Shown here: one piece after another, positions 5,115 through 63,067 of the stretch
How the letters are laid out: each line of letters opens with the position of its first letter
Position numbering within the stretch: position 1 is the stretch's first letter
The notes under the pieces: model-generated
The model's input: the letters and a program-made list of their open reading frames with translations, nothing else
Told to the model about the DNA's origin: nothing
Database searches by the model: none
Made by a program: the position numbers and the translations under genes
Origin: Methanothrix harundinacea 6Ac
Lineage (GTDB): Archaea; Halobacteriota; Methanosarcinia; Methanotrichales; Methanotrichaceae
Length of the DNA: 64,000 nucleotides
NCBI RefSeq assembly: GCF_000235565.1
Contig: NC_017527.1
Coordinates: forward strand, 1,674,001-1,738,000
Direction of reading: 5' to 3'

Positions 5115-6191
5115 ATGGCAGAGGTCTCCGATCAGCTGATATTCTGGATCGTCGTCTCCGTCCGGTTTCTTCTCCCCCTCGCCATCCCCAGGTATCCCCT
5201 TATCGGGATCCTCGGCTGCATGATCGTCGATGCCGTCGACCAGTTGGTCTTCCAGCTCTTCACAAACCTCCCCCTCGAGGGCTACCAGGGCTACGACAAG
5301 TCCCTGGACATATACTACCTGACGATCGCTTACATCTCGACCCTTCGGAACTGGCCGAACCTCTTCGCCTTCAAGCTCGGCCGGATCCTCTTCTACCACC
5401 GGCTGGCGGGGGTGGCGCTCTTCGGGCTGACGCTCTACCGCCCCTTGCTCTTGATATTCGCCAACGTCTTCGAGTACTTCTTCATCTTCTACGAGGCGAC
5501 CCGTCTCCGGCGCGATCCGAACCGTCTGACTGAATGGGAGCTCATAGGAGCTGCGGCCTTCATCCTGATCGTCATAAAGCTCCCCCAGGAGTTCTGGATC
5601 CACATCCTCGATATGAACACCCTCGACTGGATCAGGTCCAACCCCCTGGCGCTCCTGGTCCTCGTCGGCTGGGGGGCGGGGATCGTCATGGGGTTATGGT
5701 GGCTTTTGCGGGGGGTGCCCCGGGCAGTCGAGAGGCCTTCGATCCTCGATGACCCCAAAACCGCCCCGACCGCTGGAGATGCCCCCGGAAAGAATCTGCC
5801 TCAAGACCGGCTGATCAACGGGGCTCTCATCGAGAAGATCATCCTGATCTCCCTTTTGAGCATCACCTTCGCCCAGATCCTTCCCGACGTGAGGGCGACT
5901 AACCTCGCCATAGCTGCGGGAGTGACCGCCATCATAGTCATAAATACGGCGGTGAGCCAGGGGCTGGCCCGCCGCGGGACGGAGTGGAGCTCGATCATGG
6001 CGGAGTTTCTCGTGATATCCGCGATGAACCTGGGGCTAGTGGCGGGGGCGGCCTTCCTCCTCCCGAGCATCAACGGGTCGATCAACCTCGATAACGCCCT
6101 CTTCATGGTCCTCCTCTTGACCCTGAACATCACCCTCTACGACCGCTACCGACGGCTCCACCTGGAGCGCTTCGCCGTCGGCATCCGATAG
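5115..6191 (+). CDS. Polytopic membrane protein of unknown function
   Basis: A 358-residue integral membrane protein with at least eight hydrophobic segments, starting FWIVVSVRFLLPLAIPRYPLIGILG and ending with VISAMNLGLVAGAAFLL and ALFMVLLLTLNITLYDRYRRL. The frame is open upstream to 5067, but the ATG at 5115 is preferred because it begins the hydrophobic protein proper and has GGGAGAGAAGG before it. Conserved-looking polar features inside the membrane region include LIGILGCMIVDAVDQ and FEYFFIFYEATRLRRDPN. There is no transporter signature I can name. Confidence 0.7.
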   Translation: MAEVSDQLIFWIVVSVRFLLPLAIPRYPLIGILGCMIVDAVDQLVFQLFTNLPLEGYQGYDKSLDIYYLTIAYISTLRNWPNLFAFKLGRILFYHRLAGVALFGLTLYRPLLLIFANVFEYFFIFYEATRLRRDPNRLTEWELIGAAAFILIVIKLPQEFWIHILDMNTLDWIRSNPLALLVLVGWGAGIVMGLWWLLRGVPRAVERPSILDDPKTAPTAGDAPGKNLPQDRLINGALIEKIILISLLSITFAQILPDVRATNLAIAAGVTAIIVINTAVSQGLARRGTEWSSIMAEFLVISAMNLGLVAGAAFLLPSINGSINLDNALFMVLLLTLNITLYDRYRRLHLERFAVGIR

Positions 6192-6285
6192 GCATGTATC
6201 CTTTGGGCGGCAGAGACTGGGTCTACCGCAGAGCGGGAGATGATCTGATCACGGCTTTCGGAGGGTTGGGGCTACCGGGAGGGGG

Positions 6286-7059
6286 ATGGTGACGAGGGGC
6301 GGCGGAGGACGGAAGCCCAGCACCTCTGTTGGTCGGGGCCCCGAGTTCACAGTGATGACCTACAACGTGGGAAACGGCCTCGCCAGGCCTGATCGCCTGG
6401 CATCGGCCCTCCGATCCTCCGGAGCCGGGGTTATAGGCCTTCAGGAGCTGGATCAATCGCAATCTCGGGCCCTCGAGGGGTCCCTTTCCGAAGAGTACCC
6501 TTACCAAATCCTCTTGCCGGCGGGGTTCGAGGGGATGGGCCTCCTCAGCCGCTATCCTGCGACCTCGGCGGAGGTGATCTCCCTTCCTCCCACCGCCGAT
6601 CTGATCTGTACCCTCGACCTGGAGGGAAGGAAGGTCACCATCATCGTAGCCCACCCCCCGCCCCCCATCAGCTTTTCGGGGATGGGGTTCGGGGGGAGGA
6701 CGGAAGCCCGGATCCGGAGAGTGATCGAGGCTGCCACCTCTGCCCCCCCCTCGGTGATCCTGGGGGACTTAAATGCGGCGAGCTGGCAGAAGACCTGCTG
6801 CCAGCTCAGGGGAGCGGGGCTCCTCGATGCTTTCGCCGCTGCCGGGAGGGGGCGGGGCTCCACCCTCCCCGTCCGCCTGGGGCGGTGGAGGCGGCTTGAG
6901 GCGGTGAACCGGATCCTTATGGGCTTGCCCCTCCTCCCTCTCGTCAGGGTGGATTACATCTGGCACACCTCCGATATTCAGGCCCTGGGGGCGTGGCTGG
7001 GAGAGGACGCCGGATCCGATCACCTCCCGGTCCTGGCCCGCCTCGCTCTCAGGGTTTGA
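6286..7059 (+). CDS. Endonuclease/exonuclease/phosphatase (EEP) family hydrolase
   Basis: A 257-residue protein with the ordered EEP-fold motifs: TYNVGNG (about residue 24), GLQELDQS (metal-binding Glu, about 51), GDLNA (about 162), DYIWH (about 223) and SDHLPV (about 243). These are the Asn, Glu, Asp-Asn and Asp-His residues used in magnesium-dependent phosphodiester hydrolysis. The family includes DNA repair nucleases, sphingomyelinases and inositol phosphatases, so the substrate cannot be assigned. There is no signal peptide. The first 20 residues are low complexity, and the true start could be an internal GTG or ATG closer to the first motif. Confidence 0.8.
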   Translation: MVTRGGGGRKPSTSVGRGPEFTVMTYNVGNGLARPDRLASALRSSGAGVIGLQELDQSQSRALEGSLSEEYPYQILLPAGFEGMGLLSRYPATSAEVISLPPTADLICTLDLEGRKVTIIVAHPPPPISFSGMGFGGRTEARIRRVIEAATSAPPSVILGDLNAASWQKTCCQLRGAGLLDAFAAAGRGRGSTLPVRLGRWRRLEAVNRILMGLPLLPLVRVDYIWHTSDIQALGAWLGEDAGSDHLPVLARLALRV

Positions 7060-7226
7060 GGCAGATCTGGGTGGGGTATCTCGGGCTCGGAAGACGCCCC
7101 CGTCTCCGTCGATATCTTCGGGACCTGTCAAAGTCCCCCCTCCGTCAAAGCCTTCCTCTCTCTTCGATTCATCCCCCCAGTAGATAGAGCGGCGAGACGA
7201 AAGGCTCAGATTTCGGATCCCGGCTT

Positions 7227-8015
7227 TCAATCCGACGGTCCGCCTCCGTTCAGGGACCTGATCGGTACGACGTAAGGGCGATCTAGGTCCTTCATGACGA
7301 CCGCCTCGACTCCGAAGATGGTCCTGATGTTCTCTTTGGTCAGGAGGGAGATGGGGTCCCCGACGGCGTAAATCCTCCCCTCCTTCAGCATCACGAGGGA
7401 GTCGGAGTACCGGGCTGCGAGGTTCAGGTCGTGGATGGCCATCACCGCGGATATGCCGGTCTTCTTGACAATGGACCTGACCGTATCCATGGCCTCGAGC
7501 TGGTGCTTGACGTCGAGGTTGGATGTCGGCTCGTCCAGAAGTAGGACCTCGGGCTCCTGGGCCAGGGCCCGGGCGATCAGGACACGCTGCTTCTGGCCTC
7601 CTGACAGCTCGGAGAAGTCCTTGAGGGCGAACTCCTCGACGTGGAGGAGCCTCATCACCTCGACTACCCGGTCGATATCCTCTTCGGCGACCCTCCACCC
7701 CATCCTTGGTCTTCTTCCCATGAGGATGGTGTCGAATACGGTGGTGGTGAGGGAGCTGGTCGTCGACTGGGGTACGTACCCTATGAACCTTGCCACCTCC
7801 TGGCGGCTCAAGCTCTGGAGGTTGCGGCCGCCGTCCAGGATGATCGTCCCTTTTGGCTTCAGGATCCGGTCGATGCACTTGATGAGGGTCGTCTTCCCCG
7901 ATCCGTTGGGTCCGACTAGGCTCAGGACCTCGGAGTCTCCGACGACGAGGTTCAGATCATCCAGGATCCTCCTGCTGCCGTAGGAGAAGCTGAGGTTTTT
8001 GATGGTGATCTTCAC
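7227..8015 (-). CDS. FecE/BtuD-type ABC transporter ATPase, copy 1
   Basis: The 262-residue ATPase of an iron-siderophore/cobalamin-type importer. It shows Walker A GPNGSGKTT (about 35-43), a Q-loop at YVPQS, the signature LSGGQKQR, Walker B VLLLDEPTSNLD and the H-loop in MAIHDLN. The start is the GTG at 8015, overlapping the permease stop (GTGA), which gives translational coupling. A longer open frame to 8300 is only a shadow inside the permease gene. The protein is identical to the ATPase at 61187-61996 through IRSLNGG, after which the last residues differ. No binding protein gene is adjacent here, unlike the second copy. Confidence 0.9.
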   Translation of the reverse strand: MKITIKNLSFSYGSRRILDDLNLVVGDSEVLSLVGPNGSGKTTLIKCIDRILKPKGTIILDGGRNLQSLSRQEVARFIGYVPQSTTSSLTTTVFDTILMGRRPRMGWRVAEEDIDRVVEVMRLLHVEEFALKDFSELSGGQKQRVLIARALAQEPEVLLLDEPTSNLDVKHQLEAMDTVRSIVKKTGISAVMAIHDLNLAARYSDSLVMLKEGRIYAVGDPISLLTKENIRTIFGVEAVVMKDLDRPYVVPIRSLNGGGPSD

Positions 8016-49631: not shown

Positions 49632-50417
49632 TCAACCCATCAGGCGGGGATCTCCTTGGACGTCGACGTTGATGATATACCTGCTACCGGTCCAGTAGGT
49701 GTAGCCGTACCAGTTCTTATAATAAAATACTGGATGAGTCAGCCTTATGGTATGCTGCTGGTTTCCCGCGACGTTGAAGGTGTACCTCCCATCAGGGACG
49801 TCCGAGCCGGTCCCTTCGGTCCCAATTTGAACGCCGTCAACCACCACCGTATACCCCTTATACTGGCTGGAGACGGTTGTCACCTCGGCGCTGTCGCCAG
49901 GGATCGCCCCTGTCCCACCGCTGGAACCGGACCCAGAGTTCCACCCGGGCCCCGAGCCGGCGCCGGGACCTGAGCCGTTGCCGGAATCGGAGCCCCAGCC
50001 GGGGCCAGAGCCCGAGCCCTGGGCGCCACCCGATTCCGTCGGATCCTGAGATGGGGAGCCCTCCTCGCAGGATGAATACCAGATCCATCCGGTGAACCAG
50101 ATGTAAACCTCATCGCCCTCTGATAGGTATACAAATTCCGGCCCGTCGAATTGGGGTAGCAAGTCGTAATCGTACCCCTCGATGGAGACGGCCCATAGGT
50201 AATCGTCCCAGTTATCGATGAAGAGCTCATCCTCGAAGGCGATCTCCAATAGATCCATATCCGTCAGCCCATCAAGCTCCAGATAGGCGGTGAACTCCTC
50301 ATCGCAGAGGCCATCCTTGTCACCGTCGATGCAGAAGTCCACGTTGACCTCTTCGCCCCATGCCGGGCCGGCGAAAACTAAAAGAGATAAGGCGGCTAGA
50401 AGGAACTTAAATCTCAT
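49632..50417 (-). CDS. Secreted protein with EF-hand-like loop and Gly/Ser linker
   Basis: A 261-residue protein with a signal peptide (KFLLAALSLLVFAGPAWG). It is followed by CIDGDKDGLCDEEF, a 12-residue loop with the DxDxDG...E pattern of a Ca-binding EF-hand or dockerin loop bracketed by two Cys. The middle is a 50-residue Gly/Ser/Pro linker (SGPGWGSDSGNGSG and similar). The C-terminus is a beta-rich domain (YTFNVAGNQQHTIRLTHPVFY). Both linker and signal point to an exported, possibly surface-anchored protein. Start at 50417 with GGGAGAG before the ATG. Confidence 0.7.
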   Translation of the reverse strand: MRFKFLLAALSLLVFAGPAWGEEVNVDFCIDGDKDGLCDEEFTAYLELDGLTDMDLLEIAFEDELFIDNWDDYLWAVSIEGYDYDLLPQFDGPEFVYLSEGDEVYIWFTGWIWYSSCEEGSPSQDPTESGGAQGSGSGPGWGSDSGNGSGPGAGSGPGWNSGSGSSGGTGAIPGDSAEVTTVSSQYKGYTVVVDGVQIGTEGTGSDVPDGRYTFNVAGNQQHTIRLTHPVFYYKNWYGYTYWTGSRYIINVDVQGDPRLMG

Positions 50418-52955: not shown

Positions 52956-53609
52956 TCAGACAGCATCGCCATTTAGAGGCTTTATCGGGATGATGTAAGG
53001 CAGGTCCAGATCCTTCAAAACCACCCCCTTTACCCCGAAGATCATCCTGATGTTCTCCTTGGTGAGGTGGCATAGAGGATCGCAGATGGCGTATACCTTT
53101 CCCTCCTTCAGCATCACCAGGCTGTCGGAGTACCTGGCCCCTGGGTTCAGGTCGTGGATCCCCATCACCGCCGAGATCCTGGTCTTCTTCACCAGGGATC
53201 TGACCGTCTCCATCACCTTCAGCTGGTGCTTGACGTCCTGGTTCGAAGTCGGCTCGTCCAGGAGAAGGATCTCCGGCTCCTGGCAGAGGGCTCTGGCGAT
53301 AAGGATCCTCTGCTTATCGCCGCCGGAGAGCTCCGAGAAGTCCTTGAGGGCGAACTCCTCGACGTGAAGGAGCTTCATCATCTCGACGACTTTATCGATA
53401 TCCTCGTCAGATACCCGGCCGCCGTCGAGAAGGATCGCACCCTCGGGCTTGAGGATCCTGTCGATGCCCTTGATGAGGGTGGTTTTGCCGGAGCCATTGG
53501 GGCCCACGATGCTGAGAACCTCTGAGTCACCGACGACGAAGCTCAGCTCGACCGGGATCCAGCAACTGCCGTAGCTTAAGCTGAGATCCTTGATGGCGAT
53601 ATTTTCCAA
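52956..53609 (-). pseudogene. Decaying third copy of the FecE-type ATPase
   Basis: A 217-residue frame clearly paralogous to the two intact ATPases in this window (about 75 percent identical by eye). Walker A GPNGSGKTTLIKG, the signature (here LSGGDKQR instead of LSGGQKQR), Walker B ILLLDEPTSNQD and the H-loop region GIHDLN are still seen. After ILLDGGR, however, a block of about 45 residues is missing in frame, and VSDEDIDKVVEMM follows directly. The lost block in the intact copies carries the Q-loop (YVPQS) and the helical part that couples to the permease. No permease gene precedes it. It is probably non-functional. Confidence 0.8.
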
Positions 53610-53899: not shown

Positions 53900-54630
53900 A
53901 AAAGGATAACTGAAAACTATGATGAAGTCAAGTCTGAGAATTGAGAAAATGTCTATCCGGATTACTACGATGCTGTGGCATTAGCAACAAAGCCTCACCA
54001 TTTCCCAAGTCCGGTAAACGATCCTGAATGGCTGAAGCCGACGGTTGATTGGTTTGTAGAAGCAGAAACAGCCATGGAGGTTGGCCCTGGCAAGGGTGAG
54101 TTTGCCGAATCGGGAGCGAGGAGGGGCAGCCTCAGCAGATATTACATAGTCGACATGTCAGAAAGAATGCAGGATTTGGTGAAAGCCCGCCTGGAAAATG
54201 CGGATACTTCAACAGAGCTGGTTTTCATCCACGCCGAATTGGACCGCGACCCTCTTTCTGAGATTCCCGACGGAACTATAGATAAGATCATCATGATAAA
54301 CGCCTTCCAGGACATAAACCCCAAACACGCCCTCTGGGAGTTCAGAAGAATCTTGAAACCCGGTGGTCTGTTCAGGGCTAACGTCACCGATAGATCGGTG
54401 AGAGAAGAAACCGCCGCTGATGACGATCTTTTTAACAAGGAAAGCGGGTATTTCTATCTGACCAGCAATCCTGGCGCTGAAGATCAAAATGAGGTGAAAC
54501 CCCTGGGCCGCATCACCACGAAGGCTGGAGAAGATGTGCCCTACTATAGGATGATGAGATCATATTATCGATGGGAGCTCAAGCTTTCTTTTGCTGAACC
54601 CCAATGCCTAAAAAGATCGGACCGAAGCCT
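53900..54630 (+). pseudogene. SAM methyltransferase remnant with in-frame stop
   Basis: From about 53900 the frame reads NKRITENYDEVKSEN, then TGA at 53942-53944, then ENVYPDYYDAVALATKPHHF, PVNDPEWLKPTVDW, AMEVGPGKGEFAE (motif I, SAM binding), INPKHALWEFRRILKPGGLF. If the TGA were TGG (Trp) the reading would be continuous. The 3' end lacks a stop of its own and runs into the antisense of the next gene at 54634. No ATG begins the frame; the GTG at 53975 is the first possible start after the stop. So both ends are damaged. Confidence 0.65.
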
Positions 54631-54633
54631 TAC

Positions 54634-55824
54634 TTACGGCTCCGGATATACGAATACTCCCTTCTCCTCCAGATCGTAGTCAAGACCCTGGAACTCGGTG
54701 AGGTACCTATGATGGATCGCTTTTGGATCGAAATCCTCGAAGAGCTCGGGGTGAAGTATCTTGGCCGCGTAGGCGACGCCTATGAAGTGCCGACATCCGC
54801 TGTAGGGAAGGTAAGTCCATAGGGGCGAGGCCACCAGGTAGACCTCCCCATTCTTCACCGCGTTCACGTTCGCAAGCTCTTGCCGGTCCATGATCTCTTG
54901 TATTATCGCTTCCGCATTCGCGGTATCTTCCGCCATCTTCTCATCGGGATCCTCCTCCGAGAGGAGCCTGATGATCACGTCGGGATTTGCGGAAACCACA
55001 GCTTCTGGATCTATCTCCGCCGTCTGACCGAGGTCGAAGATGAAACGCCCTCCCGCCATCTCGATGGGATCGATGTTGTTGTCCGAGGTCTTGTATCGGT
55101 CCGACTCGCAGTAGACCTTCGGCCTCTCCTCCTCGGTGAGGTTCCCAGTCCTCTCCTCCACCGTCCCTAAAACGCCCTCATAGAAATCCAGGAACTTCGC
55201 CGCCTCCTCCTCCCTCTCAAAGAGGACCCCCAGCTTCTCCACCTCTTCCGAGTAGATATCCGGTCTGCTGCACGCAAGGCATGCGACGGTTATCCCAGTT
55301 CCCTCCATCTTCTCCATGAAAGGTTCGTAAAAGGCGCCGAAACGACCGCCTCCTGAGCCGGGATGCACTATGAGCAGATCAGGATTTGCCTGTACAATCG
55401 CCTCCGCATCAGGATCGTGGAAGTGTCCCAGGGAGGGGATGTCGCTGAAATCTGAGAAGTATGAGTAGTGACCTGAGGTGTGGTCGGCTATGACCACCAA
55501 ATCAAGGGGCACCTGCAACGTCCTCAAAGTTTCGAGATGCTGGGATATGGTACAGCCGACGGTCTCCACCGGCTTATAGATGGTCACTTCCCGCCCCTTG
55601 GTATCGATGATCGTCCTGGGGTACTCCTCATGAATGTGTCTTATCTCCTCTAGCTCTTCAGAGGTGATGCTCCCGTTCCCCTCTGCTGCCTCCATCTCCT
55701 CATCGGAGACCACCTTGTTCCCGTCCAGGTCCCCTGGTATCGTTCCAACATCAGCTACCGCGGGCCCCATTGCGAAGAAAAGGCACACCGCCAACAGTGC
55801 TGCCTTGGATGCCGTCATCTCCAT
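54634..55824 (-). CDS. ABC transporter substrate-binding protein, paralogue 2
   Basis: A 396-residue exported periplasmic-type binding protein (BtuF/FecB class). The signal peptide (KAALLAVCLFFAMGPAVA) is followed by TIPGDLDGNKVVSDEEMEAA, a Ca-binding dockerin-like loop of the form DxDxNxxVSDEE. Then come SQHLETLRTLQVPLDLVVIADHT, a first lobe with LGHFHDPDAEAIVQANPDLLIVHPG, and a second lobe with PDVIIRLL and VNAVKNGEVYLVASPLWTYLPYSGCRHFIG. It is clearly similar to the protein at 59927-61123. Its start is 308 bp after the CobN stop, with its own inverted repeat, so it may be expressed separately. It has no intact permease or ATPase of its own. Confidence 0.85.
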   Translation of the reverse strand: MEMTASKAALLAVCLFFAMGPAVADVGTIPGDLDGNKVVSDEEMEAAEGNGSITSEELEEIRHIHEEYPRTIIDTKGREVTIYKPVETVGCTISQHLETLRTLQVPLDLVVIADHTSGHYSYFSDFSDIPSLGHFHDPDAEAIVQANPDLLIVHPGSGGGRFGAFYEPFMEKMEGTGITVACLACSRPDIYSEEVEKLGVLFEREEEAAKFLDFYEGVLGTVEERTGNLTEEERPKVYCESDRYKTSDNNIDPIEMAGGRFIFDLGQTAEIDPEAVVSANPDVIIRLLSEEDPDEKMAEDTANAEAIIQEIMDRQELANVNAVKNGEVYLVASPLWTYLPYSGCRHFIGVAYAAKILHPELFEDFDPKAIHHRYLTEFQGLDYDLEEKGVFVYPEP

Positions 55825-56132
55825 TTTTTATCACCTATGCCAGCTTCAATAATACTAAATAGAGTTAAATTAGTATCAATTCATGTTTTTCAGTTAAAAT
55901 GTCCTTCATAGTTATAATTATTTCGATCATCTTGTTATTGAATGTCTATATCATCATAAATTTGGATATTCAAAGGGGATGAACCTTCTGATCAACAAAA
56001 CGCGATCGAGCGAGGATTAAGCTCATAAAAAGAGTTGCAGCTCCCCCTCGTCTCAGGGACGGTGCGCTTAAAGCTGTTCGGTTTGGAAAGGAGACCTCAA
56101 ATTCGATCGGCTCAGCCTTAGCAGAGATCGCT
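55825..56132. other. Intergenic stretch upstream of binding protein 2
   Basis: 308 bp, AT-rich in its left half, with the inverted repeat at 55852-55876. No open frame of interest. Confidence 0.5.
55852..55876. promoter_or_regulatory. ATACTAA/TTAGTAT inverted repeat
   Basis: A perfect 7-bp inverted repeat with an 11-nt spacer, 28 bp upstream of the binding-protein ATG on the minus strand. Half-sites of the same sequence (TTAGTAT) recur in the promoter region before the ChlI-like gene at 63316-63322. This suggests a shared regulator of the metal cluster; it is inference. Confidence 0.45.
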
Positions 56133-59100
56133 TCACCTCTCGCCGAGGCTCTCCTCTATATCTCCCTCCATCTGGAGATAAGCGTCCCTCAGCTTCTCCA
56201 TCTCCTCCTCGCTTGCGTCCCAGTATCCCCTCTTCTCGGCCTCGAAGAGCCGTTCCGCAATCTCAACGGCCGCGAACCGATTGTTCTCGAGGAGCCTTTC
56301 GCGAACCTCATCATCGAAGATGTACCTGTCGGCGATGGAGGACCAGATCCAGTTATCGACGGAATGGGTGGTGGCAGCGAGACCCAAGACGTTCTCCAAC
56401 CTTTCAGCCACCTGCTGGGCACCGTGAAAGTCGTGCTTGAGCATCCCATCAATCCACTTGGGGTTGAGAAGCCTCGTCCGGACTCCTCTCGTCACCGCGT
56501 CCCTCACGTCCTCGGTCTGGATCGCCTCGCCTGTGGTGTCGGATATGAGCATCTCCGGCCGCTCGCCTCGCGCGGTCCGAACGGCGTTAGAAAGCCCTCC
56601 GAAGTACTCGAAGTAGTGGTCGAGGTCGACGATCTCCCTATCATGGGTGTCCCTCACCTGGGACACCAGGTCGACCCTGGCGAGGTTTGACCTGTATACG
56701 GCCTCGCTCTTGACGGCGTGGAGGTTTTTAGCATAGAGGTGGCTCATCGACTGGATGTAGACCTCGGCCAGCTCGTCCTCCGTCTTCCAGATAGAATCCT
56801 CGACGAGAGGGAGCATTCTCGTACCGTACTCTCCAGCCCTCGGGCCGAATATCCTGCCGTTGGCCATCCTGATGAGTGTCTTCTCATCTAGGTTTGATCC
56901 TCCATCGTCTTCTCCGGACTTTAGCCTCTCCAGGTTCTCGATGGAATGCTTCCGGACATAGTTCATATCAAGAGGCTCGTCAAGCCCCGCTACAAGGTTG
57001 AAGGCCTGGTCGAGAAGTTCCACCACGTTCGGGAACATATCCCTGAAAAAGCCGCAGATGTTCACCAGACAGTCGATCCTGGGCCTGCCCAGCTCTTCTA
57101 GGGGCACTAAGGAAAGCTTGGGCGCGAAGGAGCCGGGGGCCCTCTCGACTTTTACGCCCAGGTAGCTCAAGATCTGTCCCACCGACTCGCCGCCGGTCTT
57201 GGTCGTCTCAAAGCCCCAGAGGATGACGCCGGTCGTCTCGGGGCAGGTGCCGTTCTTCTCCATGTACTTGGATACGGTGTTTTCGGCGATCTCCGCGCCC
57301 CTCTCGAAGGCTGCTGGTGTTGGGATCTTCGTCGGGTCGAACTGGGTGAGGTTTCTGCCCGTTGGGAGGACTTCTGGCGACCTTATGACGTCGCCTCCGT
57401 CCCCCTGCTCGACGAACTCGCTTCCCAATCCCCGAACGAAATTTTCAAGCTCGCCTCCGTTCTGAGAGTAGCTCTCCATCAGCCTCAGGCCGTAACTGAG
57501 GGTCTTAATAAGCTCCTTTTTTCCCTCCCCCGATAGGCCGCTCTCATCGGCTGCGGCCTCTGTCGACAGATCGATGGCCACATCCACGAGCCTTCTGCAC
57601 CACTCATCAATCTGCTCCAGATCTTTTGCAAAGCCCACTCTATTTTTGAGGGCGAAGTCGTAGTCGATCCCCTCGGACTCGGCGAGGATCCTGTTCAGGG
57701 ACTTCAGCTCTTCGCGGTCGTAACGGAGGATGAAGACGACAAACTGCTTCATGACGTCGGGATCGTACTTATCCCCCAGGACGTGGAGGCCGTCGGGGAT
57801 TATCCTCCGCTTCATCTCGTAGAGCTGGTCGTGGAGAAGATCGACCTCTTCGGCCTCGAAGTTCAGCTCCCTCGCCTTCTCCAGGATCATCTCCCGGACT
57901 CGCTCGCACCTTTGAGGGTCCTGGACCTGAGCTTCGGAGTGCTCGTCGATGAGGTCCTGAAGCTCTGCGTACTCCTCGTAGAGGTCGGACGCCGTGTAGG
58001 GAGGCGAGTTGTAGCCGACTATCGTCCCGTATAGTCTGCGCTTTGCGATCACCACCTCTGACGTGTTCACGACGTGGTAGAAGTAGAGGTGAGGCATGTT
58101 TCCTATCAGAAGGTCCGGGAAGCATGAAGAGCTCATCCCCACCTCCTTTCCCTTCATGAACTCGGCCAGGCCGTGGGTCCCGACGTGGACGACCAGGTCC
58201 GCCTTCCAGACCATCTCGAGCCATTCGTAAAAGGCGACGTACTGATGGTGAGGCGGCTTCGTCTTGTCGTGGGTGGCCGAGGCGAGGTCCTGATCCCCCA
58301 GGGGCGGACGGGCGGGCTGGATCCCGACGAAGACGTTCCCAAACTCGATCCCCGGGATCAGGATCTCCTCGCCGAGGGTCATCACTTTTCCCGGCGGCTC
58401 GCCCCAGGACTCGATCATATCCGATCCCATCTCCTCGGGCAAAGAGGCGAAGAACCGGCGGTAGCCTTCCGCCTTCATTGAGGGGCAGCTCTTCAGCGTC
58501 TCATCCTTCGAAAACCAGGTCCCAGAGTTCACTATCGAAAAGTCCTGGAAGAGCAGGTGGAGGTCCTTTTCGGGGAGGTCGACCCTGTAGCCCTCTTCGG
58601 CCATCCTCTCGAGGAGCCTTCGGACGCTTTTGAAGACGTCGAGGTACGAGGCCCGGCCGAGGTTTGCCTCCCCCGGAGGGTAGTTGTAGACTACGATCGC
58701 CACCCTCTTCTCGTCGTTTGGCATCTTACGGAGCCGGTTCCAGTTTCTGATCCGCGCGGCGATCCTGGATATCCGGTCGTCGATGGGGATCACGTCCTGG
58801 GCGTCGAGCTCTCCGACCTTGAAGCTCTGGACGCCGCAAGCGGGTATCGGCTCGATGCAGCCATCGAGCTCGGGCCAGATCACCGCCATGATCACCTCGG
58901 GGGGTGAGAGGCCCGTAGGCGACTCCATCCACTTCTCCACCTCCCTGCTGTACATGGGGGCGGGGGTGAAGACGGGGACGTTCAGATCCTTGAGGAGGTC
59001 CCGGGTCAGCTGATGGTTTCCTCCCAAGGGGCCTCCATTCAGCCTGAACCAGGTGAGGTTCACGAGGGCGTCAATGATCGACCGACCATCTTTAAAGAAG

Positions 59101-59909
59101 AACTTCCTCATGGCCCGGAGGTTGTGGATCCCGTCCGAGTAGACCGGCACCAGGTTCACGTCGCCCAGCTTCTCTGCCAGGGCCTTCAGCGTCGACTGGC
59201 ACTGGTCGAAGTGCATATTCCCGTAGAAGAGGTAACCGATCGTAGGCCTATCTTCTGAGAAGCCGGAGCTCTCTAGAAATTCATCGAGGTCATCGAAGCT
59301 ACCATAAACCGGATGGTATATCCCGTACTTGGGGAACTCCTGGGGATCTTTAGCCTTCGGTAGATCGCAGCCAAGGTGCTCGTTCAGGAAGTGGAGGAGA
59401 AGGTTTCGGTAGTTCTCTTTTCCGCCATATCTCCAGTACCGTGCGATCTTGACGTAGCTTGACGTATCCTTCATCGGGCCCACGGGCACCAACTTCCCAG
59501 CGGTGGCCATCAGGCTCTCGGCCCTCTGGATCTTCTTCCAGACCTCCTCGGGGTCCCTCACTTCCCCGGGATTTATGCGGTCAGCCAGCCGGCTTCCAGA
59601 AAAGGAACCGAGCCTCGTTATCCTCATCATCCGAGAGAAGGGGCTCGATAGGTTCACGACGATATTCTTCTCGTCTTTCAGGGCGTTGTAGACGACCTCG
59701 CTCGCGTGCCCCTCTCCCCTTATGTCGACGAAGACGGCGTCAGACCTCTTCAGATCCTCTCGAAGAAGCACCTCATCCACCTCTTCTTCGTCGATCGTGC
59801 GGGGGTAGTAGATCTTGAGGTCCAGGTCGAGGCGGAACTCTGCCTGGATCTCCTGGGCGGCGAGGGCGAGGCTCTTGGCCGGGACCGTCGATATGAAGGC
59901 GACCTTCAT
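56133..59909 (-). CDS. cobN: CobN/ChlH-type metal chelatase large subunit
   Basis: A 1258-residue protein, the normal size for the large subunit of cobaltochelatase or magnesium chelatase. It begins VAFISTVPAKSLALAAQEIQ. Recognisable CobN/ChlH blocks: YLFYGNMHFDQCQSTLKALAEKL, DLVVHVGTHGLAEFMKGKEV, GMSSSCFPDLLIGNMPHLYF, VIAKRRLYGTIVGYN and a C-terminal MGLAATTHSVDNWIWSSIADRY-like part. Such proteins bind the tetrapyrrole and carry out metal insertion together with AAA+ subunits such as the one at 63353. In methanogens the natural metal and tetrapyrrole for these CobN homologues are not settled. The gene starts 17 bp after the stop of the binding-protein gene, in the same operon. Confidence 0.92.
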   Translation of the reverse strand: MKVAFISTVPAKSLALAAQEIQAEFRLDLDLKIYYPRTIDEEEVDEVLLREDLKRSDAVFVDIRGEGHASEVVYNALKDEKNIVVNLSSPFSRMMRITRLGSFSGSRLADRINPGEVRDPEEVWKKIQRAESLMATAGKLVPVGPMKDTSSYVKIARYWRYGGKENYRNLLLHFLNEHLGCDLPKAKDPQEFPKYGIYHPVYGSFDDLDEFLESSGFSEDRPTIGYLFYGNMHFDQCQSTLKALAEKLGDVNLVPVYSDGIHNLRAMRKFFFKDGRSIIDALVNLTWFRLNGGPLGGNHQLTRDLLKDLNVPVFTPAPMYSREVEKWMESPTGLSPPEVIMAVIWPELDGCIEPIPACGVQSFKVGELDAQDVIPIDDRISRIAARIRNWNRLRKMPNDEKRVAIVVYNYPPGEANLGRASYLDVFKSVRRLLERMAEEGYRVDLPEKDLHLLFQDFSIVNSGTWFSKDETLKSCPSMKAEGYRRFFASLPEEMGSDMIESWGEPPGKVMTLGEEILIPGIEFGNVFVGIQPARPPLGDQDLASATHDKTKPPHHQYVAFYEWLEMVWKADLVVHVGTHGLAEFMKGKEVGMSSSCFPDLLIGNMPHLYFYHVVNTSEVVIAKRRLYGTIVGYNSPPYTASDLYEEYAELQDLIDEHSEAQVQDPQRCERVREMILEKARELNFEAEEVDLLHDQLYEMKRRIIPDGLHVLGDKYDPDVMKQFVVFILRYDREELKSLNRILAESEGIDYDFALKNRVGFAKDLEQIDEWCRRLVDVAIDLSTEAAADESGLSGEGKKELIKTLSYGLRLMESYSQNGGELENFVRGLGSEFVEQGDGGDVIRSPEVLPTGRNLTQFDPTKIPTPAAFERGAEIAENTVSKYMEKNGTCPETTGVILWGFETTKTGGESVGQILSYLGVKVERAPGSFAPKLSLVPLEELGRPRIDCLVNICGFFRDMFPNVVELLDQAFNLVAGLDEPLDMNYVRKHSIENLERLKSGEDDGGSNLDEKTLIRMANGRIFGPRAGEYGTRMLPLVEDSIWKTEDELAEVYIQSMSHLYAKNLHAVKSEAVYRSNLARVDLVSQVRDTHDREIVDLDHYFEYFGGLSNAVRTARGERPEMLISDTTGEAIQTEDVRDAVTRGVRTRLLNPKWIDGMLKHDFHGAQQVAERLENVLGLAATTHSVDNWIWSSIADRYIFDDEVRERLLENNRFAAVEIAERLFEAEKRGYWDASEEEMEKLRDAYLQMEGDIEESLGER

Positions 59910-59926
59910 GGATCATGCTCCATAGA

Positions 59927-61123
59927 TCAATCTGAAGAGGGGTAGACGAAGGCCCCCCTCTCCGATAGGTCGTAGTCTAGGCCCTGAAACTCCGAGAGGT
60001 ACCTCTGGTGGGTCTCTACGGGATCGATATCCCCAAAGAGGCCCGGATGGAACCACTTGGCCATCTGCTCGATCCCGACGAAGTACCTGCAACTGCAGTA
60101 TGGAAGGTAAGTCCAGAAGGGGGCGGCCATGGCGTAGACCCGTTCCTCCTGGACCGCCTTCACCCCCTGGAGCTCCGTCTTGTTCATCACTTCTTCCCTT
60201 GCGGCCTTCAACCTTGAGTAGTCCCCCGCCGCCTTGGCGTCGAAGTCGTCGTAGGAGACGAGCCTGATGATGACGTCGGGGTTCGCGGCGATCACGGCCT
60301 CGGGGTCCACCTCCCTCACAGGGCCCGCACCTTCGAAGATGTACCTCCCCCCGGCCATCGTTATCGGGTAGACGTCCGAGGGGGAGGTCTTATAGACGTC
60401 GTACTCGCAGTAGACCATTGGCCTCTCATCCTCGGGGATTTCGCTCACCTCATCCTCCACCGAACCCAAAACACCCTCATAAAAGTCGAGGAACTCCCGG
60501 GCCTCGGTCCCCCGCTCGAAGAGGATTCCGAGCTTCTCCACGTCCTCGGAGTAGGTCTCGGGGACGTTGCACCTGAACCTGAAGACGGTGAGCCCCGAGG
60601 CATCCAGCTTCGACAAAAGCTCGTCAAAGCCTCCGGATGGTCCTGGGCCAGGGTGGACTATCACCACGTCCGGCTCTAGGGCCAGGATCGTCTCCAGGTC
60701 GAACTCGTAGAAGTGGCCGATGCTGGGAAGATCCGCGAACTCCGAGAGGTAAGAGTACCTCTCCATGTCCTGGGGCACGCCCACTATCGTCTCTTTTGGC
60801 ACCTTGATGGAGCGGAGGGTCTCAAGCTGCTGGGGAGTGGTGCATACCGCCCTCTCCACGGGCCTATAAATCGTCACCTCCATCCCTCTCCCGTCGATTA
60901 TCGTCCGGGGATAGCTCTGCTGGATGTGCACGATCTCTTCCAATTCCTCGGAGCTCACATTGCCAGCGACTTGATTTGCCCTTGCAGCATCCAGCTCCTC
61001 GTCGGAGACTACCAGGTCCCCGTCGAGATCTCCGGGAACAGTCTTCATACAAGCGTTTTCTCCTTCTGCCATCCCCAAAAGGGAGATCGATAGAATCAGA
61101 ACCATCAATGTCCAGTTTCGCAT
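59927..61123 (-). CDS. ABC transporter substrate-binding protein, paralogue 1
   Basis: A 398-residue exported binding protein. After the signal peptide (TLMVLILSISLLGMAEG) it has TVPGDLDGDLVVSDEELDAARA, a DxDGDxxVSDEE Ca-binding loop. The BtuF/FecB-type body follows: TIIDGRGMEVTIYRPVERAVCTT, IGHFYEFDLETILALEPDVVIVHPG, EDERPMVYCEYDVYKT and VYAMAAPFWTYLPYCSCRYFVG. Its position, 63 bp after the ATPase stop, fits the binding protein of that importer. The C-terminus QGLDYDLSERGAFVYPSS is nearly the same in paralogue 2. A GGAGGAAAT site precedes the ATG at 61123. Confidence 0.87.
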   Translation of the reverse strand: MRNWTLMVLILSISLLGMAEGENACMKTVPGDLDGDLVVSDEELDAARANQVAGNVSSEELEEIVHIQQSYPRTIIDGRGMEVTIYRPVERAVCTTPQQLETLRSIKVPKETIVGVPQDMERYSYLSEFADLPSIGHFYEFDLETILALEPDVVIVHPGPGPSGGFDELLSKLDASGLTVFRFRCNVPETYSEDVEKLGILFERGTEAREFLDFYEGVLGSVEDEVSEIPEDERPMVYCEYDVYKTSPSDVYPITMAGGRYIFEGAGPVREVDPEAVIAANPDVIIRLVSYDDFDAKAAGDYSRLKAAREEVMNKTELQGVKAVQEERVYAMAAPFWTYLPYCSCRYFVGIEQMAKWFHPGLFGDIDPVETHQRYLSEFQGLDYDLSERGAFVYPSSD

Positions 61124-61186: not shown

Positions 61187-61996
61187 CTACATCCATCTAT
61201 TGAAAGATAGATCCCGCTTCTCGCCTCCGTTCAGGGATCTGATCGGTACGACGTAAGGGCGATCTAGGTCCTTCATGACGACCGCCTCGACTCCGAAGAT
61301 GGTCCTGATGTTCTCTTTGGTCAGGAGGGAGATGGGGTCCCCGACGGCGTAAATCCTCCCCTCCTTCAGCATCACGAGGGAGTCGGAGTACCGGGCTGCG
61401 AGGTTCAGGTCGTGGATGGCCATCACCGCGGATATGCCGGTCTTCTTGACAATGGACCTGACCGTATCCATGGCCTCGAGCTGGTGCTTGACGTCGAGGT
61501 TGGATGTCGGCTCGTCCAGAAGTAGGACCTCGGGCTCCTGGGCCAGGGCCCGGGCGATCAGGACACGCTGCTTCTGGCCTCCTGACAGCTCGGAGAAGTC
61601 CTTGAGGGCGAACTCCTCGACGTGGAGGAGCCTCATCACCTCGACTACCCGGTCGATATCCTCTTCGGCGACCCTCCACCCCATCCTTGGCCTTCTTCCC
61701 ATGAGGATGGTGTCGAATACGGTGGTGGTGAGGGAGCTGGTCGTCGACTGGGGTACGTACCCTATGAACCTTGCCACCTCCTGGCGGCTCAAGCTCTGGA
61801 GGTTGCGGCCGCCGTCCAGGATGATCGTCCCTTTTGGCTTCAGGATCCGGTCGATGCACTTGATGAGGGTCGTCTTCCCCGATCCGTTGGGTCCGACTAG
61901 GCTCAGGACCTCGGAGTCTCCGACGACGAGGTTCAGATCATCCAGGATCCTCCTGCTGCCGTAGGAGAAGCTGAGGTTTTTGATGGTGATCTTCAC
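61187..61996 (-). CDS. FecE/BtuD-type ABC transporter ATPase, copy 2
   Basis: A 269-residue ATPase with the same residues as copy 1 through IRSLNGG, then a unique C-terminus EKRDLSFNRWM. All the ATPase motifs are intact (GPNGSGKTT, YVPQS, LSGGQKQR, VLLLDEPTSN, MAIHDLN). The start is the GTG at 61996 overlapping the permease stop; the longer frame to 62281 is a shadow. It is followed by the binding-protein gene and CobN, so this copy is the one placed in the complete importer-chelatase operon. Confidence 0.92.
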   Translation of the reverse strand: MKITIKNLSFSYGSRRILDDLNLVVGDSEVLSLVGPNGSGKTTLIKCIDRILKPKGTIILDGGRNLQSLSRQEVARFIGYVPQSTTSSLTTTVFDTILMGRRPRMGWRVAEEDIDRVVEVMRLLHVEEFALKDFSELSGGQKQRVLIARALAQEPEVLLLDEPTSNLDVKHQLEAMDTVRSIVKKTGISAVMAIHDLNLAARYSDSLVMLKEGRIYAVGDPISLLTKENIRTIFGVEAVVMKDLDRPYVVPIRSLNGGEKRDLSFNRWM

Positions 61997-63067
61997 CAAT
62001 ACTCCTTCCTCCTTCTCAAGAACAGGTAAATGAAGAACGGAACGCCGAGGAAGGATGTCATGATCCCCACCGGCAGGATCACCGGCGCGAGGACGGTCCT
62101 GGCGACGGTGTCGGCGGCCAGGAGTATGAGGGCGCCGACGAGGGCCGAGGCCGGTAGAAGGAACCGATGGTCCCCCCCGACGACCATCCTTGTGATGTGG
62201 GGCGCGACGAGTCCTATGAACCCGATCGTCCCGGTGAAACATATGACGCTCGCCGTGATGAGGGATGCCAGCATCATGCATAATACCCGTACGAACTCGA
62301 CGTTCACCCCGAGGCTCTTGGCCGTCTCGTCCCCGGCCCCCATGGCGTTGATGTCCCAGGCGAAGTATACGAGGGCGACGGTGCAGACGACGGTCACCAT
62401 GGCAATTATCGCCACCTTATCCCAGGATGACCGGCCGAGGCTTCCCATCATCCAGAATACCACCTCGTGGACCTGCTCGGACTTTCCGATGTACTGCAGG
62501 AAGGATGTCATGGCACTGAATAGGTACATGATGGCGATCCCGGCGAGGATCATCGTCTCCGGGGTGATCCCCTTGTACCTGGCAAGGCCGTAGACGGTCA
62601 TCGATGCCAGCATCGTGAATATGAACGCGTTTCCGACAATAAGCCACTGACCGCTGGCAAACCCGGCCCCGAGGATGATGGCGAGGGACGCCCCGAAGCT
62701 GGCGGCGGATGCTATCCCGAGGGTGAAGGGGCTAGCCAGGGGGTTTTTTAAGATCCCCTGCATCGCAGCCCCGGCGACGGCTAGCCCCATCCCGGCGAAG
62801 ATGGCCATCAGCACCCGGTGGAGCCGCAGCTGCCATACGATCGTCTCGATGAAGCTCGTCGTCTGGAACGTGTCGGGGAAGAACCGGGCCAGGATGGCGG
62901 TGTAGACCTCGACCGGGGTGATCTTGGCGGAGCCGAGGGTGGCGGCGACCCCGGCCAGGACCACGATCCCGGCCACCGAAGCGAGGATGAAGAGGACCTT
63001 CCTCCCGACGAACCGGGAGTACTCATCCCTCAGCTCCGAGGCGTCTGCCGGCGTACCTGGTGACATC
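61222..63067. repeat. Segmental duplication copy 2 (permease-ATPase)
   Basis: Matches 7241-9086 at offset 53981 with only two silent differences seen. The duplication covers the whole permease and the ATPase except for its last codons; it does not include the binding protein, CobN or the promoters. Confidence 0.95.
61993..63066 (-). CDS. FecCD/BtuC-type ABC transporter permease, copy 2
   Basis: 357 residues, identical to copy 1. It is the first gene of the operon permease - ATPase - binding protein - CobN. It is divergent from the ChlI-like gene across 286 bp. The promoter region, unlike the coding part, differs from that of copy 1, so the two copies can be regulated differently. Confidence 0.92.
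   Translation of the reverse strand: MSPGTPADASELRDEYSRFVGRKVLFILASVAGIVVLAGVAATLGSAKITPVEVYTAILARFFPDTFQTTSFIETIVWQLRLHRVLMAIFAGMGLAVAGAAMQGILKNPLASPFTLGIASAASFGASLAIILGAGFASGQWLIVGNAFIFTMLASMTVYGLARYKGITPETMILAGIAIMYLFSAMTSFLQYIGKSEQVHEVVFWMMGSLGRSSWDKVAIIAMVTVVCTVALVYFAWDINAMGAGDETAKSLGVNVEFVRVLCMMLASLITASVICFTGTIGFIGLVAPHITRMVVGGDHRFLLPASALVGALILLAADTVARTVLAPVILPVGIMTSFLGVPFFIYLFLRRRKEYW

Follow-up and report, generated by a model that had tools for sequence, protein, structure and literature searches.

Dockerins on archaeal binding proteins and the M. harundinacea locus

Dockerins are common on the substrate-binding components of anaerobic methanotrophic (ANME) archaea, and scaffoldin-like proteins with up to five cohesins are described for these organisms in the relevant passages of Chadwick et al. 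(2022, PMC9012536). For Methanosaeta concilii, a table entry in Timmers et al. (2017, PMC5244752) gives 17 dockerin domains and 0 cohesin domains. Here a 64,000-nucleotide stretch of the Methanothrix harundinacea 6Ac genome (contig NC_017527.1, positions 1,674,001 to 1,738,000; the window) was analyzed for two secreted FecB-type substrate-binding proteins, P1 and P2, each of which carries a short N-terminal module with a single EF-hand/F-hand loop. The archaeal family to which the window belongs displays the same dockerin/cohesin imbalance as M. concilii; the passages that accompany that table entry discuss neither the carrier proteins nor the imbalance. The ANME system, as presented in the passages cited, differs in that its dockerin-bearing components are of the NikA/OppA and TroA types, whereas P1 and P2 are of the FecB type, come from a methanogen family with almost no cohesins, and have the short one-loop form. 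We propose that P1 and P2 serve a FecCD/BtuCD-type importer as its substrate-binding proteins, within a CobN-like chelatase locus, and that their module is a Ca-loop docking module, common to many binding proteins and directed to a putative non-cohesin partner; to this reading, importer assignment included, we give about even credence. The features on which it is built are as follows.

54634..55824, minus strand: P1, secreted FecB-type (class III) substrate-binding protein with N-terminal short module (open reading frame [ORF] of 396 amino acids; Peripla_BP_2, 67 bits)
55618..55737, minus strand: P1 short module, residues 30-69 (loop, helix, degenerate loop, helix; from sequence, with the helices in a low-confidence model)
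55696..55731, minus strand: P1 12-residue EF-hand/F-hand loop DLDGNKVVSDEE, residues 32-43 (sequence, pattern search)
59927..61123, minus strand: P2, secreted FecB-type substrate-binding protein with N-terminal short module (ORF of 398 amino acids; Peripla_BP_2, 71.3 bits)
60908..61036, minus strand: P2 short module, residues 30-72 (from sequence; helices predicted by the model at residues 41-52 and 58-70)
60995..61030, minus strand: P2 12-residue EF-hand/F-hand loop DLDGDLVVSDEE, residues 32-43 (sequence, pattern search)

An N-terminal module outside the binding lobes

Residues 30-43 were found to read PGDLDGNKVVSDEE in P1 and PGDLDGDLVVSDEE in P2. The loop itself, D-L-D-G-N/D-K/L-V-V-S-D-E-E, has the ligand positions 1, 3, 5, 9, and 12 of an EF-hand or F-hand, and these carry the residues of the dockerin Ca2+ ligand set (D, D, N/D, S, and E, respectively). 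Next come a first helix, a second loop, another helix, and the junction YPRTIxD, after which the binding lobes begin. The second loop has no acidic ligands at positions 1, 3, and 5, so that two Ca2+-type F-hand repeats are not present, and Dockerin_1 (PF00404) gave no Pfam match in P1 or P2 at E ≤ 10. Both proteins exceed the Pfam gathering score of 27.5 bits for Peripla_BP_2 (PF01497), and the P2 model aligned with YiuA/FepB-like chains (Z 25-27, root mean square deviation 2.7-3.4, 287-306 residues aligned) as a class III fold. The fold and family are thus shared with FecB/YiuA/BtuF-type proteins over residues about 70-395, and the N-terminal module is extra: it lies outside the modelled lobe match, and solved relatives align to P2 from residues about 65-74. 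The list of structural matches to the P2 model spans residues 68-394 only and is uninformative on the module.

The first-pass annotation had pointed to this loop in both proteins, and on that it was right: both ORFs are real, the loop falls at residues 32-43 in each, and its frequency is above chance. When a PROSITE-like EF-hand pattern for the 12-residue loop was relaxed at position 6, it was detected in 25 of 27 N-termini of the short form described below and in none of the lobes of 153 FecB-like proteins; the background was one occurrence among the 225,812 residues of 622 other ORFs, and 103 in 54,000 shuffled modules.

Short and two-loop modules as a probable family

A search with P2 at a match threshold of 1e-20 found matches in 22 of 41 genomes, with up to 45 in a single genome (G006). 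Removal of copies from 204 hits left 153 FecB-like archaeal proteins, of which 27 have the short form, 76 have a two-loop form (GNANMDDTIDEDDI...DANYDGEIDEDDI), and 50 have neither by the patterns used, some of these "plain" proteins being truncated or having a module that the patterns missed (e.g., L044 and L063). The 103 module-bearing proteins of 153 do not represent a genome-wide frequency, because the sampled regions were chosen for their richness in matches. The view that ordinary FecB/BtuF proteins lack the motif, also part of the first-pass annotation, thus holds for the solved relatives and fails for the archaea. It holds as well for the Thalassospira/Rhodospirillales homologues examined: a scan of genome contigs returned homologues only from this group, 14 were retrieved, and the seven examined were all without the module.

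The host genome encodes three short and two two-loop proteins, all of the FecB type. Its two-loop paralogues scored 19.6 and 17.4 bits against Dockerin_1, under the cut-off of 22.9; two-loop segments matched this family at E ≤ 1 in 18 of 18 cases (best 5.3e-6), and a two-loop profile compared with solved structures retrieved dockerins first (5lxv, 1.4e-4). The short-module profile had as its best structural match a centrin, at 0.019. In the short-form loops the ligand positions are nearly invariant (D/E at 1, 27/27; D/N at 3, 27/27; D/N at 5, 26/27; S at 9, 27/27; E at 12, 27/27), where the search pattern itself required positions 1, 3, and 9 and partly 5 but not position 12, while the exposed positions 2, 6, 10, and 11 vary. 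The short and two-loop forms aligned with an hhalign probability of 94.8 over a part that includes a shared downstream segment, and the short form may have descended from the two-loop form.

Compared with type I dockerins, the family shares the F-hand ligands at 1, 3, 5, 9, and 12, its two-loop paralogues match both the Pfam family and the structures, and cohesins adjoin it in relatives; P1 and P2 differ in having one liganded loop, no Pfam match, acidic residues at positions 10 and 11, and no cohesin found in the genome. The dockerin/EF-hand likeness that had been noted is supported at the sequence level, by the conserved ligand positions and by the paralogues' dockerin-like two-loop version; P1 and P2 are not dockerins by Pfam membership, and their kinship with dockerin-like modules is likely.

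The ends of the proteins were also examined. A C-terminal hydrophobic anchor was not found in any module-bearing protein, and in this respect they differ from the archaeal PGF-CTERM-anchored substrate-binding proteins of TIGR04281, which have the same transport role; P1 and P2 match that model weakly (41 and 54.1 bits), far under its cut-off of 325 bits. In the relatives, what TIGR04281 combines is split over two genes, one for the anchor (cohesin plus PGF-CTERM) and one for the binding protein (dockerin). Loss of a lipid anchor was considered as the reason for the module and is a weak candidate: by our own lipobox rule, applied to complete N-termini only (26 of 153 set aside as incomplete), a lipobox was present in none of 93 module-bearing proteins and in 4 of 34 plain ones, yet 30 of the 34 plain proteins lack it too.

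Cohesins adjoin the two-loop form in relatives and were not detected in the host

The host genome (2.57 Mb, two contigs, the larger of 2,559,043 bases; 99.89% complete) had no cohesin over the PF00963 cut-off, and among 50 genomes of its family this model scored over cut-off in only one (G016), a genome that itself has no P2 match at 1e-20. A custom profile, A5, was built from cohesins adjacent to substrate-binding proteins. It was positive in 4 of 10 control genomes; none of these four had been used for building, and PF00963 at 0.01 had missed one of them. Across the phylum A5 was positive in 112 of 392 genomes; in the window's family it was positive in 0 of 50 genomes, host included, where a strongly diverged cohesin could still escape it. 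No secreted cohesin-like gene was seen, by eye, beside those arrays of the family that were read. The search for a cohesin-like partner gene that the first-pass annotation had suggested therefore came back empty with both profiles, and a cohesin partner for P1 and P2 in the host is not supported.

Outside the family the picture is different. Among 20 genomes chosen for carrying modules, 14 had a cohesin over cut-off, and counting PF00963 hits only, a same-strand cohesin is found within 3 kb for 18 of 60 two-loop modules, in 11 of 13 cohesin-bearing genomes. With A5 at 1e-5, cohesins were detected in 21 of the 28 two-loop genomes outside family f1 and not in the other seven (G039, G097, G105, G147, G270, G300, and G422). 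In four genomes of one genus (f3, g18; a Methanosarcina-like reading), a cohesin gene stands immediately 5′ of a two-loop binding protein; by eye, a methyltransferase-like frame and FecCD lie downstream in 4/4, and a full-length frame like the DUF4198 protein of L171 and an ATPase-like frame were each seen in 3/4. The two cohesin proteins tested (L168 and L171) have both Cohesin and PGF-CTERM over the Pfam cut-off, while the NCBIfam PGF_CTERM model gave three below-cut-off matches and missed one among the four proteins. From the gene neighborhood and the module identity, a membrane-anchored cohesin in these relatives probably keeps the binding protein close to the importer by gripping the dockerin of that protein. 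Docking to a surface partner, as originally suggested for P1 and P2, is thus strongly indicated in relatives by the adjoining cohesins and PGF-CTERM anchors, and in the host it lacks a cohesin by two profiles.

Two arrangements at these loci may be added. Loci L168-L171 form operon-like runs of the cohesin protein, the dockerin-bearing binding protein, the methyltransferase-like frame, and FecCD; in L168, the cohesin occupies 7169-7831 and its dockerin-bearing neighbor 5776-7194. Scaffoldin-like multi-cohesin proteins stand beside dockerin-bearing binding proteins at L175:4736-6652 and L176, one of them ending in a dockerin; next to the array in f20 lies a frame of 639 residues that has four cohesin stretches and a dockerin at its end.

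Loop positions 10 and 11 differ with the presence of cohesin

In dockerin repeats, recognition is assigned to positions 10, 11, 17, 18, and 22 and Ca2+ ligation to positions 1, 3, 5, 9, and 12 in the relevant passages of PMC6780208, and Met is described as predominant at position 10 in the type II dockerins of B. cellulosolvens (PMC5590126, in the part concerned with these dockerins). All 34 modules from cohesin-bearing genomes were found to have Met/Val at position 10 and Arg/Lys at position 11 of loop 1, and neither of their loops is acidic at these two positions. In the window's family, an acidic residue at 10/11 is present in 72 (loop 1) and 61 (loop 2) of 76 modules, and in other cohesin-negative genomes in 11 (loop 1) and 8 (loop 2) of 13; P1 and P2 have Asp-Glu. 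Over the tree set (FastTree, 115 rows), M/V-R/K at 10/11 occurs in 34/34 cohesin-bearing versus 1/79 cohesin-negative modules, the exception being L088 (from the cohesin-negative G022), whose two-loop module reads Met-Lys in loop 1. Hosts with and without cohesins are interleaved on the lobe tree, and the supported independent pairs agree in 11 of 11 cases (median sign-test p 0.00098). The few hosts behind the contrast are f3 (part), f10, f20, and f32 on the cohesin-bearing side and f1, f12, f16, f17, and G039 of f3 on the cohesin-negative side, with the cohesin state of G200 taken from profile A5 alone. Conservation of the two-loop modules at positions 1, 3, 5, 9, and 12 is by construction, as the class patterns require some ligand residues.

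The module is conserved above the lobes and behaves as a cassette

Median identity was higher for the module than for the lobe in the two-loop form (0.63 versus 0.33, n = 72), the short form (0.55 versus 0.33, n = 27), and the modules of cohesin-bearing genomes (0.60 versus 0.32, n = 33). Fourfold-degenerate sites differed at 0.54 within the same genome and 0.60 between genomes for two-loop modules, and at 0.45 and 0.61, respectively, for short modules; these sites are near saturation, and therefore selection rather than recent copying lies behind the conservation of the module, which a common partner or a constraint of the fold would explain. On the lobe tree (FastTree, 144 of 153 rows), the label short, two-loop, or plain changes at least 20 times (shuffled mean 60.3), and proteins of the three classes adjoin one another in gene arrays. 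L035, a homologue with 54% identity over the lobe, is without the module, and losses have occurred inside short-form clades (L042 and L055). Across the 25 best cross-host lobe pairs, lobe identity averages 0.58 and module identity 0.49, so that the module tracks the host and not the lobe. Separately, up to ten FecB-type binding-protein genes were seen to stand in a row at L058, L059, L064, and L070, with permease genes few or absent.

Alternative explanations

In the reading that we favor, each of P1 and P2 would carry at its N terminus a docking module derived from an EF-hand, probably a dockerin relative that has been shortened, in which the first F-hand loop would have retained the Ca2+ ligand set and the second would have lost its acidic ligands, with both helices kept. 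The module would be a cassette on many FecB-type binding proteins of the window's archaeal family, would most likely fold with one bound Ca2+, and would tether binding proteins of varied ligand specificity to one shared non-cohesin surface partner, for which the permease, the S-layer or sheath, or another secreted protein are putative candidates. Several points weigh against it. The EF-hand pattern fits P1 in full and P2 departs from it at loop position 6; short modules match Pfam EF-hands weakly and below cut-off (best 0.0073). The models give the helices, with the loop poorly resolved: in the P2 model, residues 31-40 have a mean predicted local distance difference test (pLDDT) score of 47, which is low, and the isolated module (residues 24-69 of P1) was modelled at low confidence with a predicted template modeling (pTM) score of 0.22. 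The apparent kinship of the short and two-loop forms leans on an hhalign result driven partly by the shared downstream segment. A constraint of the fold alone could account for the conservation of the module, and the helical hairpin seems to be retained with the acidic loop lost in L155, L156, and L158-L160, therefore the loop is not always needed. No short module (0/10) was found within 3 kb of a same-strand cohesin, which makes the tether role of the short form the least supported step. The gene-tree pairs are not independent hosts, as cohesin state varies over a handful of families; with hosts fewer than gene pairs, the 10/11 switch makes a strong pattern and a moderate test. Finally, Ca2+ binding, the shared partner, and the tether function are predictions.

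Three other accounts were weighed against the docking of P1 and P2 to a non-cohesin partner. The module could be a local structural Ca2+ site that packs against its own lobe, on the hinge or the N-terminal strand, and stabilizes or gates that lobe with no partner; the short, constant YP-R-T-I-x-D stretch that joins the module to the first strand of the lobe and the single liganded loop of the short form would fit, and the first-pass annotation had likewise raised Ca2+ control of the binding lobe. However, the module is variable and dispensable, being lost within short-form clades, and the solved relatives manage without such a part. Because L035 has none at 54% lobe identity and module identity goes with the host, not with the lobe, Ca2+ control of the lobe is disfavored, and we regard this account as unlikely. 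Cohesin-dockerin tethering could instead be intact, by a cohesin that has diverged beyond the reach of the profiles, with docking as in the cohesin-bearing relatives. This account would agree with the clearly dockerin-like nature of the two two-loop genes of the host, the cohesin neighbors elsewhere, and docking as the established role of dockerins. It is quite unlikely in view of the profile searches of the family (PF00963 in none of the host and 1 of 50 genomes; A5 in none, though positive among its controls), the arrays read by eye, which have no secreted cohesin-like gene, and the differing contact positions 10 and 11. The module may also be a relic, derived from a dockerin and left functionless after cohesin loss, as the failure to find a cohesin in the host, the degenerate second loop of the short form, the loss of the loop in some relatives, and the plain paralogues (up to 50 of 153) might suggest; the conservation of the module above the lobe level and across near-saturated fourfold sites, together with the intact ligand positions, speaks against it, and this account is the least probable of the three.

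Genes of the locus and the putative substrate

On the minus strand, the genes are read in the order FecCD permease, ATP-binding cassette (ABC) ATPase, P2, CobN/BchH-like chelatase subunit, and P1. Besides P1 and P2, the features are as follows.

56133..59909, minus strand: CobN/BchH-like chelatase large subunit between P2 and P1 (PF02514, 1154.7 bits; over the NCBIfam BchH cut-off)
61187..62281, minus strand: ABC ATPase of the corrinoid/iron-complex importer type (listed ORF; the true start is probably inside it)
61993..63066, minus strand: FecCD/BtuC-type permease (PF01032, 313.1 bits)

The CobN-like gene was found to be a family-wide companion of the module-bearing binding proteins: CobN is missing from the four of 25 family genomes in which P2 has no match at 1e-20 and is present in 20 of the 21 others. 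This co-occurrence points to a tetrapyrrole, a corrinoid, or a metal chelate as the putative substrate of the importer. With regard to the chelatase, the subunit at 56133-59909 exceeds the BchH cut-off in a methanogen-like genome; BchH/CobN-like subunit units alternate with binding-protein genes in the relatives L073 and L074; and in G020 (L070:19-3660), a NifH-like gene and two nitrogenase-component-1-like genes stand beside a binding-protein/CobN array.

Other genes near these loci were also observed. A shortened copy of the importer ATPase at 52956-53609 (minus strand) is without the stretch between the Walker A and signature parts of the ORF at 61187-62281, and therefore looks like a duplication remnant. 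In a small secreted protein at 49632-50417 (minus strand), the signal peptide is followed by another acidic segment, DGDKDGLCDEE; this protein matches PEGA weakly, under the cut-off. Genes for S-adenosylmethionine (SAM)-dependent methyltransferases recur beside binding-protein loci, as at 53975-54679 (plus strand) in the window, L079:6798-7733, and L058:3996-5078.

Implications of a possible cohesin-free docking

In the open-access literature searched, we found no paper that makes these points. The dockerins of methanogens without cohesins have been counted and left unexplained in the literature considered; here they are placed on the binding proteins of importers, which stand in arrays of up to ten near CobN-like chelatase genes. 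The relatives, in which the genes for a PGF-CTERM cohesin and a dockerin-bearing binding protein are paired, lend themselves to a straightforward test of binding. Tentatively, and with less than even confidence, we suggest that a dockerin-derived Ca2+ module with acidic contacts has been retargeted to one common non-cohesin surface partner, such that dozens of binding proteins with different ligands would share one site, for the same purpose as relatives use a membrane-anchored cohesin. If the module does dock on such a partner, that partner would be a new receptor for the dockerin/F-hand fold.

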